A DNA stretch of 60,177 nt. It comes from a virus. The DNA is taken from positions 1 through 60,177 of IMG/VR virus record IMGVR_UViG_3300049197_000009. One strand, given 5' to 3'. Both the position numbers and the translations under genes were made by a program. The notes beneath the pieces are model-generated. The model had not been told where the DNA came from. It ran no database searches and saw only the letters and a list, made by a program, of their open reading frames with translations. Of this stretch, positions 18,220 to 54,657 are shown one piece after another. The stretch's first letter is position 1, and every line of letters starts with the position of its first letter.

Positions 18220-18645
18220 ATGCGATACGTAACCTACGATGAGGCAGGCAATCTGACCGGCAGCTACCTGCAAGATGTTCACCCCGACCACCTGAGCCAC
18301 TACATTCCGGTATCGGATGAGATCGGCTTGAACTGGACGGCGTACAAGGCTAATGTCGTGCGCAATGGCGTTGAGCCAGCGCCGCCCGTTGTGCCGCCTG
18401 TTGTTGTTCCTGATGAAGTCACGCGCCGCCGTGGCTTGCAAGCGCTCTTGATTAGTGGCGTGACCGAGGCGATGATCGAGGCTGCAATCGAGGCGGCATT
18501 GACCGGCCTTGAGTGCGAGCTTGCCCTGATCGAGTTCCGCACATCGCAAACGTTCGAGCGCAATCGCCCCCTGGTGCTCGCCATCGGCGGCGCGATGGGC
18601 CTTGACCTGGACGAATTATTCACCCTTGCCGCGAGCCTGCCATGA
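18220..18645 (+). CDS. Tail-associated protein (possible fibre assembly)
   Basis: 141 residues, starting directly after the fibre stop. N-terminal MRYVTYDEAGNLTGSYLQDVHPDHLSHYI, a Pro/Val-rich linker (PAPPVVPPVVVP) and a helical C-terminus (RRRGLQALLISGVTEAMIEAAIEA...EFRTSQTFERNRPLV). This split design, directly downstream of a fibre gene, is seen in fibre assembly chaperones and attached tail proteins. Function inferred from position. Confidence 0.6.
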   Translation: MRYVTYDEAGNLTGSYLQDVHPDHLSHYIPVSDEIGLNWTAYKANVVRNGVEPAPPVVPPVVVPDEVTRRRGLQALLISGVTEAMIEAAIEAALTGLECELALIEFRTSQTFERNRPLVLAIGGAMGLDLDELFTLAASLP

Positions 18646-19142
18646 GGCCGGGCCGCGTCGTTGTTAGGTTCACGACCAAGGGCCACATCGGCAGCAGGAT
18701 CGCTGCCAAACTTTCGCAGTCGCGCGAGTTCAATCACTGCATGCTGATTGACGGCGACATGGTATCGGAGGCTGTGACGTGGGGTGGAACGCGGTACGTG
18801 AAGACGGACATAGCCATGCGCGGCGTGAAGAAGTTTCAGGACATGGTAGTGATCGTCCCAAACATAGAGGCCATGCGCACATTCCTGCGCGACCAGTACG
18901 GCAAGGGCTATGACTGGCTTGGCGCTATCGGATTGCCGATCCTGCGCTCGGAGGCGTGGCAGGACGATGACCGCTGGTGGTGCAGCGAAATCATTCTCGC
19001 GGCGCTTGGCGCTGGCGGCAATTGGATTCTTGATCCCGCTGAATTGCGAAGGGTGACTCCGAACGATCTGCGGCAAGTGCAGCTTGCGAAACTTCCCTAC
19101 AACCAACCCGCTTCGGCGAGTTTTTTTACGGCCAGCCAATGA
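18642..19142 (+). CDS. NlpC/P60-like (permuted papain-fold) peptidase
   Basis: 166 residues, ATGA-coupled. The papain-like signature of YiiX/NlpC-type amidases is visible: His32 in FNHCMLIDG, YDWLGAIGLPI (residues 90-100) and the nucleophile Cys114 in RWWCSEIILAALG. It could cleave peptidoglycan cross-links, as a tail-tip hydrolase during DNA entry or as a second lysis enzyme. The C-terminal codons overlap a degraded terminator hairpin (19105-19127). Confidence 0.75.
   Translation: MRPGRVVVRFTTKGHIGSRIAAKLSQSREFNHCMLIDGDMVSEAVTWGGTRYVKTDIAMRGVKKFQDMVVIVPNIEAMRTFLRDQYGKGYDWLGAIGLPILRSEAWQDDDRWWCSEIILAALGAGGNWILDPAELRRVTPNDLRQVQLAKLPYNQPASASFFTASQ
19105..19127 (+). terminator. Degraded terminator inside the 3' end of the amidase gene
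   Basis: AACCCGC-TTCG-GCGAGTT with seven T. It matches the hairpin at 11201 except for one C-A mismatch in the stem. It is translated as part of the peptidase C-terminus and precedes the holin start by 12 bases. Confidence 0.55.
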
Positions 19143-22681: not shown

Positions 22682-22711
22682 TTGTTCAATTCCAGCATTT
22701 GGCGCTACACT
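22682..22711 (+). promoter_or_regulatory. Promoter for the rightward gene at 22718
   Basis: -35 TTGTTC (22682-22687), 18-bp spacer, -10 TACACT (22706-22711). The ATG lies 6 bases after the -10 box, so the message would be leaderless. Confidence 0.5.
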
Positions 22712-22717
22712 GTTCGC

Positions 22718-23017
22718 ATGTACAGTGTCAAACAACTTCGCCGCCACGGCGCGCGCCTCAGCGACCGTCAAATCCACTCCGAGCCAGCCGTCGCCAGCCA
22801 CCTCACCATGGCAATGGTCGGCAGCGCCTACGAACTCAAGCTGCACGCCGAGAACGACGGTTCGAGCCGGGAGCCGCTCATCCCAATCCTCTACGATGCC
22901 CGCCTGATATCCATGCACGGCGACAAGATGCTGTTTCGTGGCTTGGAGCGGCGTGGCGGACAGGATGAGGCAACCTGGTTGCAGGAATGGTCGGTGAAGG
23001 TTTCAAGTGACAAGTAA
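22718..23017 (+). CDS. Hypothetical protein next to attP
   Basis: 99 residues from the ATG at 22718 (MYSVKQLRRHGARLSDRQIHSEP...). Basic, mixed alpha/beta, no membrane segment. An upstream in-frame TTG exists (22682) but is inside the putative -35 box. It converges on the integrase gene and would lie at one end of the integrated prophage; a lysogenic conversion role is inferred. I do not recognise the fold. Confidence 0.65.
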   Translation: MYSVKQLRRHGARLSDRQIHSEPAVASHLTMAMVGSAYELKLHAENDGSSREPLIPILYDARLISMHGDKMLFRGLERRGGQDEATWLQEWSVKVSSDK

Positions 23018-36037: not shown

Positions 36038-36304
36038 TTAAGCCGCCAGCCCGTCGCAATCGAAGCGCGCAATCTGGTAGTTGATCTGGCTCTCGCGCCG
36101 CGCCGTCGCAATCGAGCGATCGGCAAACTCGTTCATCGCGTCGTAAGCCTTGCCAGGAATCAGCGCGCCGATGCTGCGCTTGTCGCCGCACAGGGCCACG
36201 TCTTGAACATCCGCCTCGCCGTCGAAGTCGCCGTACAGGTCAACCACGATATCCATGTACTTGTAGCCAGAGGCGAGCAGCTTGTAGGTCGAGTTGATGT
36301 TCAT
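36038..36304 (-). CDS. First gene of the leftward early operon
   Basis: 88 residues from the ATG at 36304 (MNINSTYKLLASGYKYMDIVVDLYGDF...), about 28 bases downstream of the predicted PL start. An in-frame ATG at 36367 is within the -35 box and rejected. Acidic to neutral, helical C-terminus; not N-like in composition. Confidence 0.65.
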   Translation of the reverse strand: MNINSTYKLLASGYKYMDIVVDLYGDFDGEADVQDVALCGDKRSIGALIPGKAYDAMNEFADRSIATARRESQINYQIARFDCDGLAA

Positions 36305-36338: not shown

Positions 36339-36367
36339 ATTATCGGTGTTCCAATATTCAATGTCAA
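36339..36367 (-). promoter_or_regulatory. Leftward early promoter PL
   Basis: On the minus strand: -35 TTGACA (36367-36362), 17-bp spacer, -10 GATAAT (36344-36339). Operator a overlaps the -10 box and operator b touches the -35 box, as at PR. Confidence 0.8.
36342..36355. promoter_or_regulatory. Operator a (OL)
   Basis: ATCGG-TGTT-CCAAT, 14-bp dyad. One of four related sites; centre 25 bp from operator b. Confidence 0.75.
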
Positions 36368-36380
36368 TAGGGATACCGAT
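36367..36380. promoter_or_regulatory. Operator b (OL)
   Basis: ATAGG-GATA-CCGAT, 14-bp dyad related to operators a, c and d. Confidence 0.72.
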
Positions 36381-36447
36381 ATTTCTTCGATATTTCTGAT
36401 AAAATGAGTCCGTTGCTATGAATTAGTGGTCACGCTGGGAGTTGCGG

Positions 36448-37029
36448 ATGAAAGTGCGGAATTACCTAGAGGCAAAGTACGGAGTCGGAAATGCAACGAC
36501 GTTGCTCTATTGCGAGGCGAAGGCGTTTGGCATTCAGTACCCACCGGCGAGCGGCTGGCTCCGCCTGCACGGAGACATCGAGATTGATTCAGGGATGGCA
36601 AGGCGGCTGCGAGCGGCTTTGGAAAAGAGCGACAAACCATCGGCAAAGGATGGTCTTCGGGTGTTGGATATTGCGTGGCTGGAGCTTAAATCTTCGCCCG
36701 ACGCCACAGGCGATCTATTTCTTCAGTCAAAAGCCTGGAAGCGGCTGCGCATTCAGGCGCTCAACAAGTATGGCCGGAAGTGCCAATGTTGCGGCGCTAG
36801 TCCGTCCACCGGGGCCGTGCTGAACGTGGATCATGTCCTACCGCGCCGCCTGTTCCCGGCTTTAGCCTTGCATCTGGATAATCTGCAGGTGCTATGCGGT
36901 GATTGCAACGAGGGTAAGGGAAATTGGGATATGACCGATTCCCGGCCTGGCGCACGATTGCAGCCCGTTCGAGCGGTGCGAGCAATGCGCGCCCGCCTTA
37001 CTGGCGGCGGGATGGGGCGCGCCAACTAA
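36448..37029 (+). CDS. HNH endonuclease in the immunity region
   Basis: 193 residues from the ATG at 36448 (GGGAG 7 bases upstream); the TTG at 36442 is rejected. N-terminal 90 residues of unknown fold, with IEIDSGMARRLRAALEKSD. HNH domain with two C-x2-C knuckles: CQCCGASPSTGAVLNVDHVLPRRLFPALALHLDNLQVLCGDCNEGKGNWD. Placed between OL and the repressor gene and reading opposite to PL, where lambda carries rex. Could be a superinfection-exclusion nuclease or a homing-type element. Confidence 0.82.
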   Translation: MKVRNYLEAKYGVGNATTLLYCEAKAFGIQYPPASGWLRLHGDIEIDSGMARRLRAALEKSDKPSAKDGLRVLDIAWLELKSSPDATGDLFLQSKAWKRLRIQALNKYGRKCQCCGASPSTGAVLNVDHVLPRRLFPALALHLDNLQVLCGDCNEGKGNWDMTDSRPGARLQPVRAVRAMRARLTGGGMGRAN

Positions 37030-37250
37030 GTCCGATCTAGCAGTAGCCGAAGCATTCCCTTGATCTCGTCGGCCAGCCGCCTCATTTCTTCCATGTGTTC
37101 CGTTTGTAGTCTTGCAAGTATCTCAGCGTTCAGCGACCGACCGTTGTGTTCTGCCGACGCTCTAAGTTGATCCCGTAGCTCGCTCGGCAATCGGAGTGCC
37201 GTCTGTACATAATCTACCTGTTTCGCTTTTTGTTTGGGCGGTTTCGTCAT
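37026..37250 (-). CDS. Arc-type ribbon-helix-helix repressor
   Basis: 74 residues. VDYVQTALRLPSELRDQLRASAEHNGRSLNAEILARLQTEHMEEM is the Arc/MetJ ribbon-helix-helix pattern (strand residues QTALRLP contact DNA). Convergent with the HNH gene (4-bp overlap) and divergent from the gene at 37435; the dyads at 37294-37306 and 37375-37390 are candidate sites for it. Confidence 0.85.
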   Translation of the reverse strand: MTKPPKQKAKQVDYVQTALRLPSELRDQLRASAEHNGRSLNAEILARLQTEHMEEMRRLADEIKGMLRLLLDRT

Positions 37251-37293
37251 CGCCCGATTTTTTCACGGGCCACCGTGCCAAAGTGTGAACTGT

Positions 37294-37306
37294 TTCCATT
37301 ATGGAA
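37294..37306. promoter_or_regulatory. Dyad upstream of the Arc-type gene
   Basis: TTCCAT-T-ATGGAA, 44 bp upstream of the repressor start. Candidate autoregulatory operator. Confidence 0.45.
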
Positions 37307-37374
37307 GCGGCAATGTGAGAATTCGTTACTTTTCAGTGGGTAAATTAGGCATAAAAGATACCTTTATTCTAATT

Positions 37375-37390
37375 GTAGGATCATTCCTAC
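37375..37390. promoter_or_regulatory. Dyad upstream of the gene at 37435
   Basis: GTAGGA-TCAT-TCCTAC, perfect 6-bp arms, 45 bp upstream of the start. Surrounding DNA is A+T-rich and probably contains the promoter. Confidence 0.5.
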
Positions 37391-37434
37391 GGTGGTACAT
37401 TAGCTAGTGAATAATTTTACGGACGTACACTTAT

Positions 37435-37641
37435 ATGAATGTTGAGCAACAGTTGTTGAAGTCGTTTTATGCGTCTGATGGCAGGGGAAGGTTGGCAATA
37501 CTGGAATACGCCGCCAGCATGGCCGAGGACTGGCCTGATCTCGGTCTAGGTCTAGGGCAGATCATCGCCGACCCGGCTTGCCTCCCTGGTAGCGAGCTTG
37601 ATAATCTCGAACCGCCCCCTATCGTCGGTCCGTCGAAATAG
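37435..37641 (+). CDS. Small protein resembling the repressor C-terminus
   Basis: 68 residues. Residues 6-36 (QLLKSFYASDGRGRLAILEYAASMAEDWPDL) resemble the last 30 residues of the repressor on the opposite strand (GLLDLFRRTDDRGRFEIIKLATREAS). It has no HTH, so it might interact with the repressor or be an orphan dimerisation domain. Its last 90 bp overlap the repressor gene antisense. No good ribosome site is visible. Confidence 0.6.
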   Translation: MNVEQQLLKSFYASDGRGRLAILEYAASMAEDWPDLGLGLGQIIADPACLPGSELDNLEPPPIVGPSK

Positions 37642-37926
37642 ATCAAGAAGTCCAGCCTCATCCTCGTACGCAAGAATCATTCGAGCCTGCCGCCCAGAAA
37701 ATGCCGCAGCATCGTTTGTGGCTCGCGGTAGCCCCTTCCCGGTCTCAAGCCAAAGCGCATTGACGCCGCATGCAGCAGCGATTGACGCAATCAGCGTAGT
37801 CGCGTGAGACACCCCGGTCTCCAACTCCGACAGTGAGCCTTGAGCCATCCCGACCCTCTTAGCTAGTTGCTTCTGAGTCAGCTTCGCAGCCTTGCGAGCC
37901 TCTCTTATTCTTGTTCCTATAGACAT
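37552..37926 (-). CDS. Short HTH phage repressor (CI/C-like)
   Basis: 124 residues from the ATG at 37926. HTH at residues 6-60 (IREARKAAKLTQKQLAKRVGMAQGSLSELETGVSHATTLIASIAAACGVN). No LexA/CI-type peptidase domain, so it is not expected to self-cleave after RecA activation; an antirepressor or other signal may induce. C-terminal GLLDLFRRTDDRGRFEIIKLATREA likely gives dimer contacts. Divergent from the Cro-like gene with operators c and d between. Confidence 0.87.
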   Translation of the reverse strand: MSIGTRIREARKAAKLTQKQLAKRVGMAQGSLSELETGVSHATTLIASIAAACGVNALWLETGKGLPRATNDAAAFSGRQARMILAYEDEAGLLDLFRRTDDRGRFEIIKLATREASRVGDDLP

Positions 37927-37950
37927 AACGATATTATCCGTTGCAATTAA

Positions 37951-37964
37951 ATTGGTATTCCGAT
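37951..37964. promoter_or_regulatory. Operator c (OR)
   Basis: ATTGG-TATT-CCGAT, 14-bp dyad; its last base is the first of the PR -35 box. Confidence 0.77.
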
Positions 37965-37992
37965 TGACAGCAAATATCGGAGTGCCTATAAT
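37964..37992 (+). promoter_or_regulatory. Rightward early promoter PR
   Basis: Perfect sigma-70 consensus: TTGACA (37964-37969), 17-bp spacer, TATAAT (37987-37992). The ATG of the Cro-like gene begins 8 bases after the last -10 base, so the transcript is predicted to be leaderless. Confidence 0.9.
37976..37989. promoter_or_regulatory. Operator d (OR)
   Basis: ATCGG-AGTG-CCTAT, 14-bp dyad inside the PR spacer and -10 box; centre exactly 25 bp from operator c. Confidence 0.75.
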
Positions 37993-37999
37993 TTGACTC

Positions 38000-38203
38000 A
38001 TGAACATTCCTTTCACTATCTCAGGCTTGCGAAAAGCCGGTCTTACCCAAGCGCAAATCGGTGATGCGGTCGGCCTGAAGCAGTCGAGCATCAGCGAGAT
38101 GGAGGCTGGTAAGTGCGGCGTCACACGCCCAACGCACGGCCTCGTAACTGGCCTGGCATCACTGGCGAAAAAATACCTGATCGCCACCGAGCCACCGCCT
38201 TGA
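38000..38203 (+). CDS. Cro-like HTH protein
   Basis: 67 residues; HTH in residues 8-40 (GLRKAGLTQAQIGDAVGLKQSSISEMEAGK), followed by a short C-terminus. First gene from PR and divergent from the repressor: the cro position. It should bind the same operators and favour lytic growth. No ribosome site precedes the ATG, in keeping with leaderless translation. Confidence 0.85.
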   Translation: MNIPFTISGLRKAGLTQAQIGDAVGLKQSSISEMEAGKCGVTRPTHGLVTGLASLAKKYLIATEPPP

Positions 38204-53626: not shown

Positions 53627-53901
53627 TAGATCAACCCCGCTTCGCAAGAGGCGGCACATCACGGGGCATTAGTAGGCCTTCGATGGCTAGCTGTGCGCAC
53701 GGTGCGCTAGTGCTCGCGTGATGTGATCCCGCAAAACCCGTGATGAAACGTTGCAAGCCTATCGGGGCCACAAGCTGCGCCGTCAAAGGAGTAACACGGC
53801 GCATAGCCTCACCGGCTTAACCGGTGGCCAGACGCATGGCGATTCTAACGGGCTATGGATTGGGGGTTCCCGGTCGGCCCTTAACCTGAGTCGTCATGCC
53901 T
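53627..53901. other. Non-coding 275-bp region before tRNA-His
   Basis: No gene seen. Two good hairpins: GCGCCGT...ACGGCGC (53777-53802 region) and ACCGG-CTTAA-CCGGT near 53811-53825. Probably untranslated late mRNA with processing sites near the tRNA. Confidence 0.4.
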
Positions 53902-53976
53902 GTGGTTATAGCTCAATGGTTAGAGTCGCGGCTTGTGATGCCGCTTATCTGGGTTCGATTCCCAGTAGCCACCCCA
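53902..53976 (+). tRNA. tRNA-His (anticodon GTG)
   Basis: Full cloverleaf: acceptor GTGGTTA/TAGCCAC, D arm GCTC-AATGGTTA-GAGT, anticodon arm GCGGC-TTGTGAT-GCCGC with anticodon GTG, T arm CTGGG-TTCGATT-CCCAG, discriminator C73 and encoded CCA. The base before the acceptor (position -1) is T, not the G that bacterial tRNA-His genes normally encode for histidyl-tRNA synthetase recognition. Confidence 0.93.
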
Positions 53977-54012
53977 AAACGCAACGCTGGGCGTACGCCA
54001 GCACCAAATACG

Positions 54013-54048
54013 AAAGCCCCGACAGTTCACGCTGGCCGGGGCTTTTTT
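54013..54048 (+). terminator. Terminator after tRNA-His
   Basis: 9-bp stem AAAGCCCCG/CGGGGCTTT with 15-nt loop and a run of six T. Confidence 0.75.
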
Positions 54049-54141
54049 GCTTTCAATGCGCAGCCTAGGCTTGCTACCGAACGCCGATTCGTCATCGGCT
54101 GGCAGCGCACCCATTTCAAGACGACCTATGACGGAGGGAAT

Positions 54142-54657
54142 ATGCAACAGCTTATCGTAGTTGACACCGATGTGCATCAGGACCAAGACGGCCGCTTCTG
54201 CTTGAATGACTTGCACCGCGCCGCAATGCTCAAGGGCACAGCGACAAGCAACCAGCGCCCCGGCAACTTCATGAAGCGGCAGGAGACTATCGACCTGATC
54301 GCGGCCATGGAAAAGAGATGCTACCCCGGTAGCATCACTCCCGTCCGCACGGTGAAGGGAAACACTCCCGGCATCCGGCAGGGTACGTTTGTCACCAAGC
54401 CGCTGATCTACGCATACGCGATGTGGATTGACGCCGACTTCCACCTGGATGTGATCGAGGCGTTCGACCGTGGCGGCGCGGTACAGCAAGACCTGTGGAT
54501 GCAGATGCAAGCACTAGTCGCCAAAGAGGTCAATTCGCAAGTCCGCGCAACATTTGGCTCGCACCTGATGTTGAAGCGCAAGCGTGAGATTCCACCGCTG
54601 CGCGATGAGCGTGCCTTGCTGGAAGCCGCGATTCAACCATCGCTGCTTACACACTAA
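54142..54657 (+). CDS. KilA-N domain protein
   Basis: 171 residues from the ATG at 54142 (GGAGGGAA upstream); the longer frame upstream runs through the tRNA. DQDGRFCLNDLHRAAMLKG...RPGNFMKRQETIDLIAAME, GIRQGTFVTKPLIYAYAMWIDADFHLDVIEAFD is the KilA-N DNA-binding domain. Often an antirepressor or regulator in temperate phages; here it is placed in the late region. Confidence 0.85.
   Translation: MQQLIVVDTDVHQDQDGRFCLNDLHRAAMLKGTATSNQRPGNFMKRQETIDLIAAMEKRCYPGSITPVRTVKGNTPGIRQGTFVTKPLIYAYAMWIDADFHLDVIEAFDRGGAVQQDLWMQMQALVAKEVNSQVRATFGSHLMLKRKREIPPLRDERALLEAAIQPSLLTH

Follow-up and report, generated by a model that had tools for sequence, protein, structure and literature searches.

Paired 14-bp operators of a putative lambda-like early switch in a 60-kb phage genome and its viral relatives

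We describe an early control element that, judged by its sequence, is real, well conserved and widespread. It lies in a viral window (the whole 60,177-nt stretch of DNA analysed here), a whole phage genome whose ends share 126 bp and which is probably circular. The element very probably serves as an early lysis–lysogeny switch, in which a short XRE repressor would act on paired 14-bp operators at the promoters PR and PL. A sequence-only reading had taken the paired sites for OL and OR of a lambda-like switch. That assignment stands in that nearly all loci compared carry an inverted OL of the same sequence class as their OR, and in that the class follows helix 3 of CI; it departs from lambda in having two sites per operator, an outer OR site over the -35 of PRM, and a repressor with no S24 domain. 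It rests on a PR layout shared among relatives together with a same-class OL that was found independently.

Results

Two operator pairs on the two early promoters

The elements of the switch in the window are as follows.

36038–36304, minus strand: first open reading frame under PL, 88 aa, with no family match
36339–36367, minus strand: PL promoter, TTGACA-N17-GATAAT (-35 TTGACA at 36367–36362, -10 GATAAT at 36344–36339)
36342–36355: OL inner operator, ATCGGTGTTCCAAT (minus strand reads ATTGGAACACCGAT), overlapping the PL spacer and -10
36367–36380: OL outer operator, ATAGGGATACCGAT (minus strand reads ATCGGTATCCCTAT), ending on the first base of the PL -35
37552–37926, minus strand: CI-like XRE repressor, 124 aa, one HTH_3 domain (Pfam E 5e-11) and a helical C-terminal tail
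37951–37964: OR outer operator, ATTGGTATTCCGAT, ending on the first base of the PR -35 and covering the putative PRM -35 (37961–37956)
37964–37992, plus strand: PR promoter, TTGACA-N17-TATAAT
37976–37989: OR inner operator, ATCGGAGTGCCTAT, overlapping the PR spacer and -10
38000–38203, plus strand: Cro-like HTH protein, 67 aa (HTH_31, E 2.7e-6; PHROG 6831, a phage regulator family, E 1.3e-13), with helix 3 LKQSSISEMEAG

The four dyads that had been reported at 36342, 36367, 37951 and 37976 are exact to the base, and all are present as ATYGG-N4-CCNAT, although two of the four fit that pattern on one strand only. The described geometry was likewise borne out: both pairs are 25 bp apart centre to centre, and at PL and PR alike the inner site begins 12 bases past the outer one and extends 3 bases into the -10. 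Both promoters read TTGACA-N17-(G/T)ATAAT as claimed, and across 60 kb no other sigma-70 promoter agrees with the consensus in 11 or more of its 12 bases at 17-bp spacing. The placement of the OL sites relative to PL is that seen in relatives. Each operator in the window has two good sites, not three; OR alone offers a weak candidate for another, described below.

This arrangement is not due to chance. The genome-wide search proposed with the first reading yielded one extra copy only, and so no crowd of random ones: ATNGG-N4-CCNAT has five matches in the 60-kb genome, four of them forming the two pairs on PL and PR, and the fifth, at 18927, is solitary and lies within an open reading frame (18642–19142). 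Dinucleotide shuffles of the window (n = 300) gave a mean of 0.68 sites per shuffle and a maximum of 4, and none of the 300 contained a pair of sites 23–26 bp apart.

Among solved sequences, the repressor is nearest to 434 Cro and 434 repressor, and the HTH in its structural model overlays 434 Cro at 1.0 Å; this model is confident in the HTH only, and the tail was not used for inference. Its closest relatives in the phage collection are the CI proteins of D3, JBD44, F10 and their kin (51–58% identity over the HTH). A Pfam search found no S24 peptidase domain in it.

Several other genes lie nearby. An HNH endonuclease gene (36448–37029, rightward; Pfam E 4e-7) is placed between OL and the repressor gene, and an Arc-like gene (37026–37250, minus strand) diverges from a small open reading frame (37435–37641, plus strand) that converges on the repressor gene and overlaps its 3' end. 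Between the Arc-like gene and the small frame is a perfect inverted repeat, GTAGGA-TCAT-TCCTAC (37375–37390), with TACGGTGGTACA and TACGGACGTACA close to it; this may be a second, Arc-like control region.

The layout and a matching OL recur among relatives

We collected loci in which a dyad pair on a -35/-10 adjoins genes for an XRE and a Cro-like protein. Exact scans for the operator–promoter module turned up 20 stretches among viral contigs, and searches with the repressor and Cro gave many further loci; the set, found by protein or pattern search, comes almost wholly from viral contigs. Counting the window, 36 distinct viral switch loci have the PR layout in common; they were chosen partly by PR symmetry, PL having played no part in the selection. 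The distance from the cI ATG to the outer operator is 24 bases in 35 of the 36; in the sole exception, L138, the start was probably called too early by our script.

OL was sought by running each locus's own OR half-sites against its repressor-side flank. An inverted, same-class pair on a promoter was found in 33 of the 36 loci, about 0.8–2.7 kb away on the repressor side and scoring 18–20 of 20, compared with best scores of 12–16 in shuffled flanks (13 loci tested, 40 shuffles). The search found no OL in L131, which has less than 1 kb of flank, or in L129 and L050, which have at least 3.4 kb. A scan of genome contigs for the pattern gave three matches, of which only L037, from an Alcaligenaceae bacterium, has paired sites; a second pair lies 3.5 kb from the first in that genome (G001:C4). 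A set of further Cro-like loci (L140–L196) has another type of Cro, and there the gene is preceded by ATCGGTTTGGCTAT and ATCGGAAAACCTAT pairs.

PRM and the expected direction of autoregulation

Two further elements were located beside the start of cI.

37933–37938, minus strand: putative PRM -10, GATAAT, ending six bases before the cI ATG; also present in most relatives and in D3
37919–37932: weak candidate for a third site, ATAGACATAACGAT, spanning the start codon of cI and matching 6 of 8 fixed positions

The message that lambda makes from PRM for cI is leaderless, and from the GATAAT six bases before the ATG we infer the same for the window. Counting with +1 at the A of the cI ATG, and with the PRM start taken from sequence only, the OR sites have their centres at -31.5 (outer) and -56.5 (inner). 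Because the outer site lies over the PRM -35, autorepression is to be expected, not lambda-like activation, and we predict that the repressor autorepresses PRM.

A lambda-like arrangement, in which repressor at OR would switch on its own promoter and PRM would lie elsewhere, is somewhat unlikely. The poor -35 of the putative PRM (GGAATA) would suit a weak promoter in need of an activator, but activating CI in lambda sits at about -42, against -31.5 and -56.5 for the two OR sites of the window. D3, which has the same GATAAT and six-base leader, places its OR2 at -43.5 on the same reckoning, and the gap of 24 bases between the ATG and the outer site is fixed in all but one locus.

We considered a third operator at the cI start and rejected it. 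The candidate, at the -32 position, is better kept in relatives (mean 6.37 of 8) than in the window, but half of that score comes from cI codons, and the same holds for the -44 position (5.89). Separately, L095, L116, L188 and their kin have a near-site another 24 bp outward, and on the reverse strand of L013 a third exact site lies 32 bp from one site of the OL pair, a distance equal to that of the candidate at the cI start.

Operator class follows helix 3 of CI and not Cro

Co-variation of operators and recognition helices, a check suggested along with the first reading, was seen throughout: class follows CI helix 3 in all 36 loci, through few events. Where helix 3 ends in SELE the class is ATNGG (22 of 22 loci), and where it is KQSTISDLE, or once KQSSISDLE, the class is ACCGG (12 of 12). 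The remaining helices are SQSAISQLE in L098, with ATAAG at both OL and OR, and AQGTIADLE in L129, with ATCGA. On the HTH tree these classes require three changes, the minimum possible, so that the co-variation reflects few independent changes, ACCGG being a single clade. OL tracks OR, with ACCGG, ATAAG and ATNGG each self-paired and cross-class half-sites giving lower OL scores.

Operator class does not track Cro sequence. Between L128 (ACCGG) and L130 (ATNGG), identity is 91% for Cro but only 59% for the CI HTH domain; L121 and L123 show a similar contrast, and across the class-differing pairs L119/L123 and L128/L130 the ranges are 87–91% for Cro and 59–61% for the CI HTH. The latter two pairs look as if Cro had moved between immunity types. 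These pairs also favour the possibility that the four sites are operators of the repressor only, Cro acting mainly elsewhere (for example at the weak cI-start site) or being blind to class, as does a conserved CCGAT half-site that abuts the cI start in most relatives. We regard this as unlikely, given that CI and Cro use common sites in lambda-like switches and that, in alignments, Cro helix 3 (KQSSISEME) resembles CI helix 3 (AQGSLSELE), with a glutamine kept in both; in 434 repressor this glutamine contacts base pair 1. Our preferred reading has the Cro-like protein probably binding the paired sites, which is its weakest step. That the dyads serve some other host or phage regulator, such as the Arc-like protein, and overlap the promoters incidentally is highly improbable: further DNA-binding proteins are indeed encoded nearby in the window, but from locus to locus the operator class shifts in step with CI helix 3, OL and OR vary jointly, and the only extra copy of the motif is isolated in an open reading frame.

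Comparison with D3, lambda and 434

The operators had been described as a new sequence. As a new kind they are not, since Pseudomonas phage D3, whose CI N-terminal domain is 53% identical over residues 1–73, carries annotated operators of this type, likewise 14 bp long, and since the motif recurs in many viruses. The record (NC_002484) lists ATGGGCACTCCCAT, ATGAGTATTCCCCT and ATGAGTATTCCCAT, spaced at 24 bp, as three putative operators, and our reading of them rests on that GenBank annotation and on the sequence; PseuP_222 carries ATCGGTATTCCCAT. D3 resembles the window in its divergent cI and cro, in the form ATGRG-N4-CCCAT of its operators, for which the window has the matching 14-bp ATNRG-N4-CCNAT dyad with a related CI HTH, and in its GATAAT six bases before the cI ATG. 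It differs in having three OR sites at 24 bp, where the window has two at 25 bp, with OR2 close to the activating position, a full-length CI (223 aa) and a Cro of another subfamily (VDQSTVSGWVRG). To judge from these sequences, the window operators are a two-site variant related to those of D3.

Of the features of a lambdoid switch, the window has cI and cro in divergent orientation with dyad operators that overlap PR and, beyond cI, a second early promoter, PL, that carries a matching operator. As in lambda, cI lies between divergent early promoters, cro comes first under PR, the dyads are about 24–25 bp apart (a cooperative-type spacing) and the cI message is putatively leaderless. The window lacks three sites per operator, CI at about -42 for activation of PRM, and a RecA-cleavable CI with an S24 domain; its sites are 14 bp and lambda's 17 bp, its outer OR site covers the PRM -35, and its repressor is short. 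A total below six is not without precedent, as 933W has five operator sites in all (PMC3317979).

The repressor and Cro of phage 434 are the closest solved sequences and folds, and they share with the window the 14-bp operators and the invariant glutamine that opens helix 3. In 434 the half-site is ACAA, CI is full-length and cleavable, and the operators have three sites, all of which differ from the window.

Route of induction

The relatives' repressors are either of the S24 type (229–242 aa; for example L130, L136 and L119) or of the short type, and this label changes four to six times on bootstrap trees. The window repressor and the S24 repressor of L130 share 81% identity in the HTH. A repressor with no S24 domain implies induction by another route. 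In Gifsy phages, repressors are not cleaved in induction, and an antirepressor gene outside the immunity region is under LexA control (PMC3121763); the window resembles them in its predicted uncleaved repressor.

This precedent prompted a search for LexA boxes. CTGTA-N6-TACAG is present in 10 of the 14 short-repressor phages and in none of the 22 S24 phages (Fisher 4e-6), in counts that leave out the window, draw on contigs of unnamed host and include some fragmentary records. Collapsing the L188-type clade to a single entry leaves 5 of 9 short-repressor relatives with a box (7e-4). The exact form was fixed after a first set, and a second set, new bar two records, agreed. We treat the correlation as an exploratory lead, not a result. 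Of four genes tested after such boxes in relatives, two are SRAP genes and two have no family match, so the correlation alone does not show antirepressors. Boxes precede SRAP genes in the short-repressor relatives L209 and L211 and a 224-aa orphan in L212, also of the short type.

In the window, a weaker LexA-box-like sequence, CTGTTCGCATGTACAG (22710–22725), runs across the start codon (ATG at 22718) of an orphan open reading frame of 99 aa (22718–23017, plus strand), with the integrase gene's 3' end some 170 bp away. The box is kept in a 94% identical homologue (L199), is present as CTGTACGCATGTACAG in L201 and is absent from six others. A LexA-driven antirepressor at this position was rejected, as most homologues have no box and the phage of the closest one has no related repressor. 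Distant from the immunity region, the window also encodes a KilA-N domain protein (53896–54657; Pfam E 5e-15), and such proteins are frequently annotated as antirepressors.

Discussion

The mechanism that we propose is as follows. Repressor dimers would bind the 14-bp operators, of which PR and PL have two each, covering the -35 edge, the spacer and the -10 of each promoter and so keeping the phage silent. The repressor would probably be translated from a leaderless message starting at the GATAAT promoter, and would restrict its own synthesis and not activate PRM. The Cro-like protein made from PR would probably act at the same four sites. In the SOS response the repressor would probably escape cleavage and be removed otherwise, for example by an antirepressor.

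For the family as a whole, a broader account is possible but tentative: operators may evolve with CI while Cro stays nearly unchanged across immunity classes, the S24 domain may have been gained or lost repeatedly with the operators untouched, and short-repressor phages may compensate through a LexA-controlled gene.

These loci form a natural set of switches that keep a single fixed layout across four or more operator classes and can be put to several uses. First, the set allows a test of the rules by which HTH repressors read their sites. Second, it allows one to ask whether Cro must match CI. Third, the fixed two-site layout, with an operator over the -35 of the cI promoter, would be a switch without the positive feedback of lambda. 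Finally, the same operators occur with S24 or with short repressors, and may thus reveal how the induction signal changes while immunity stays.
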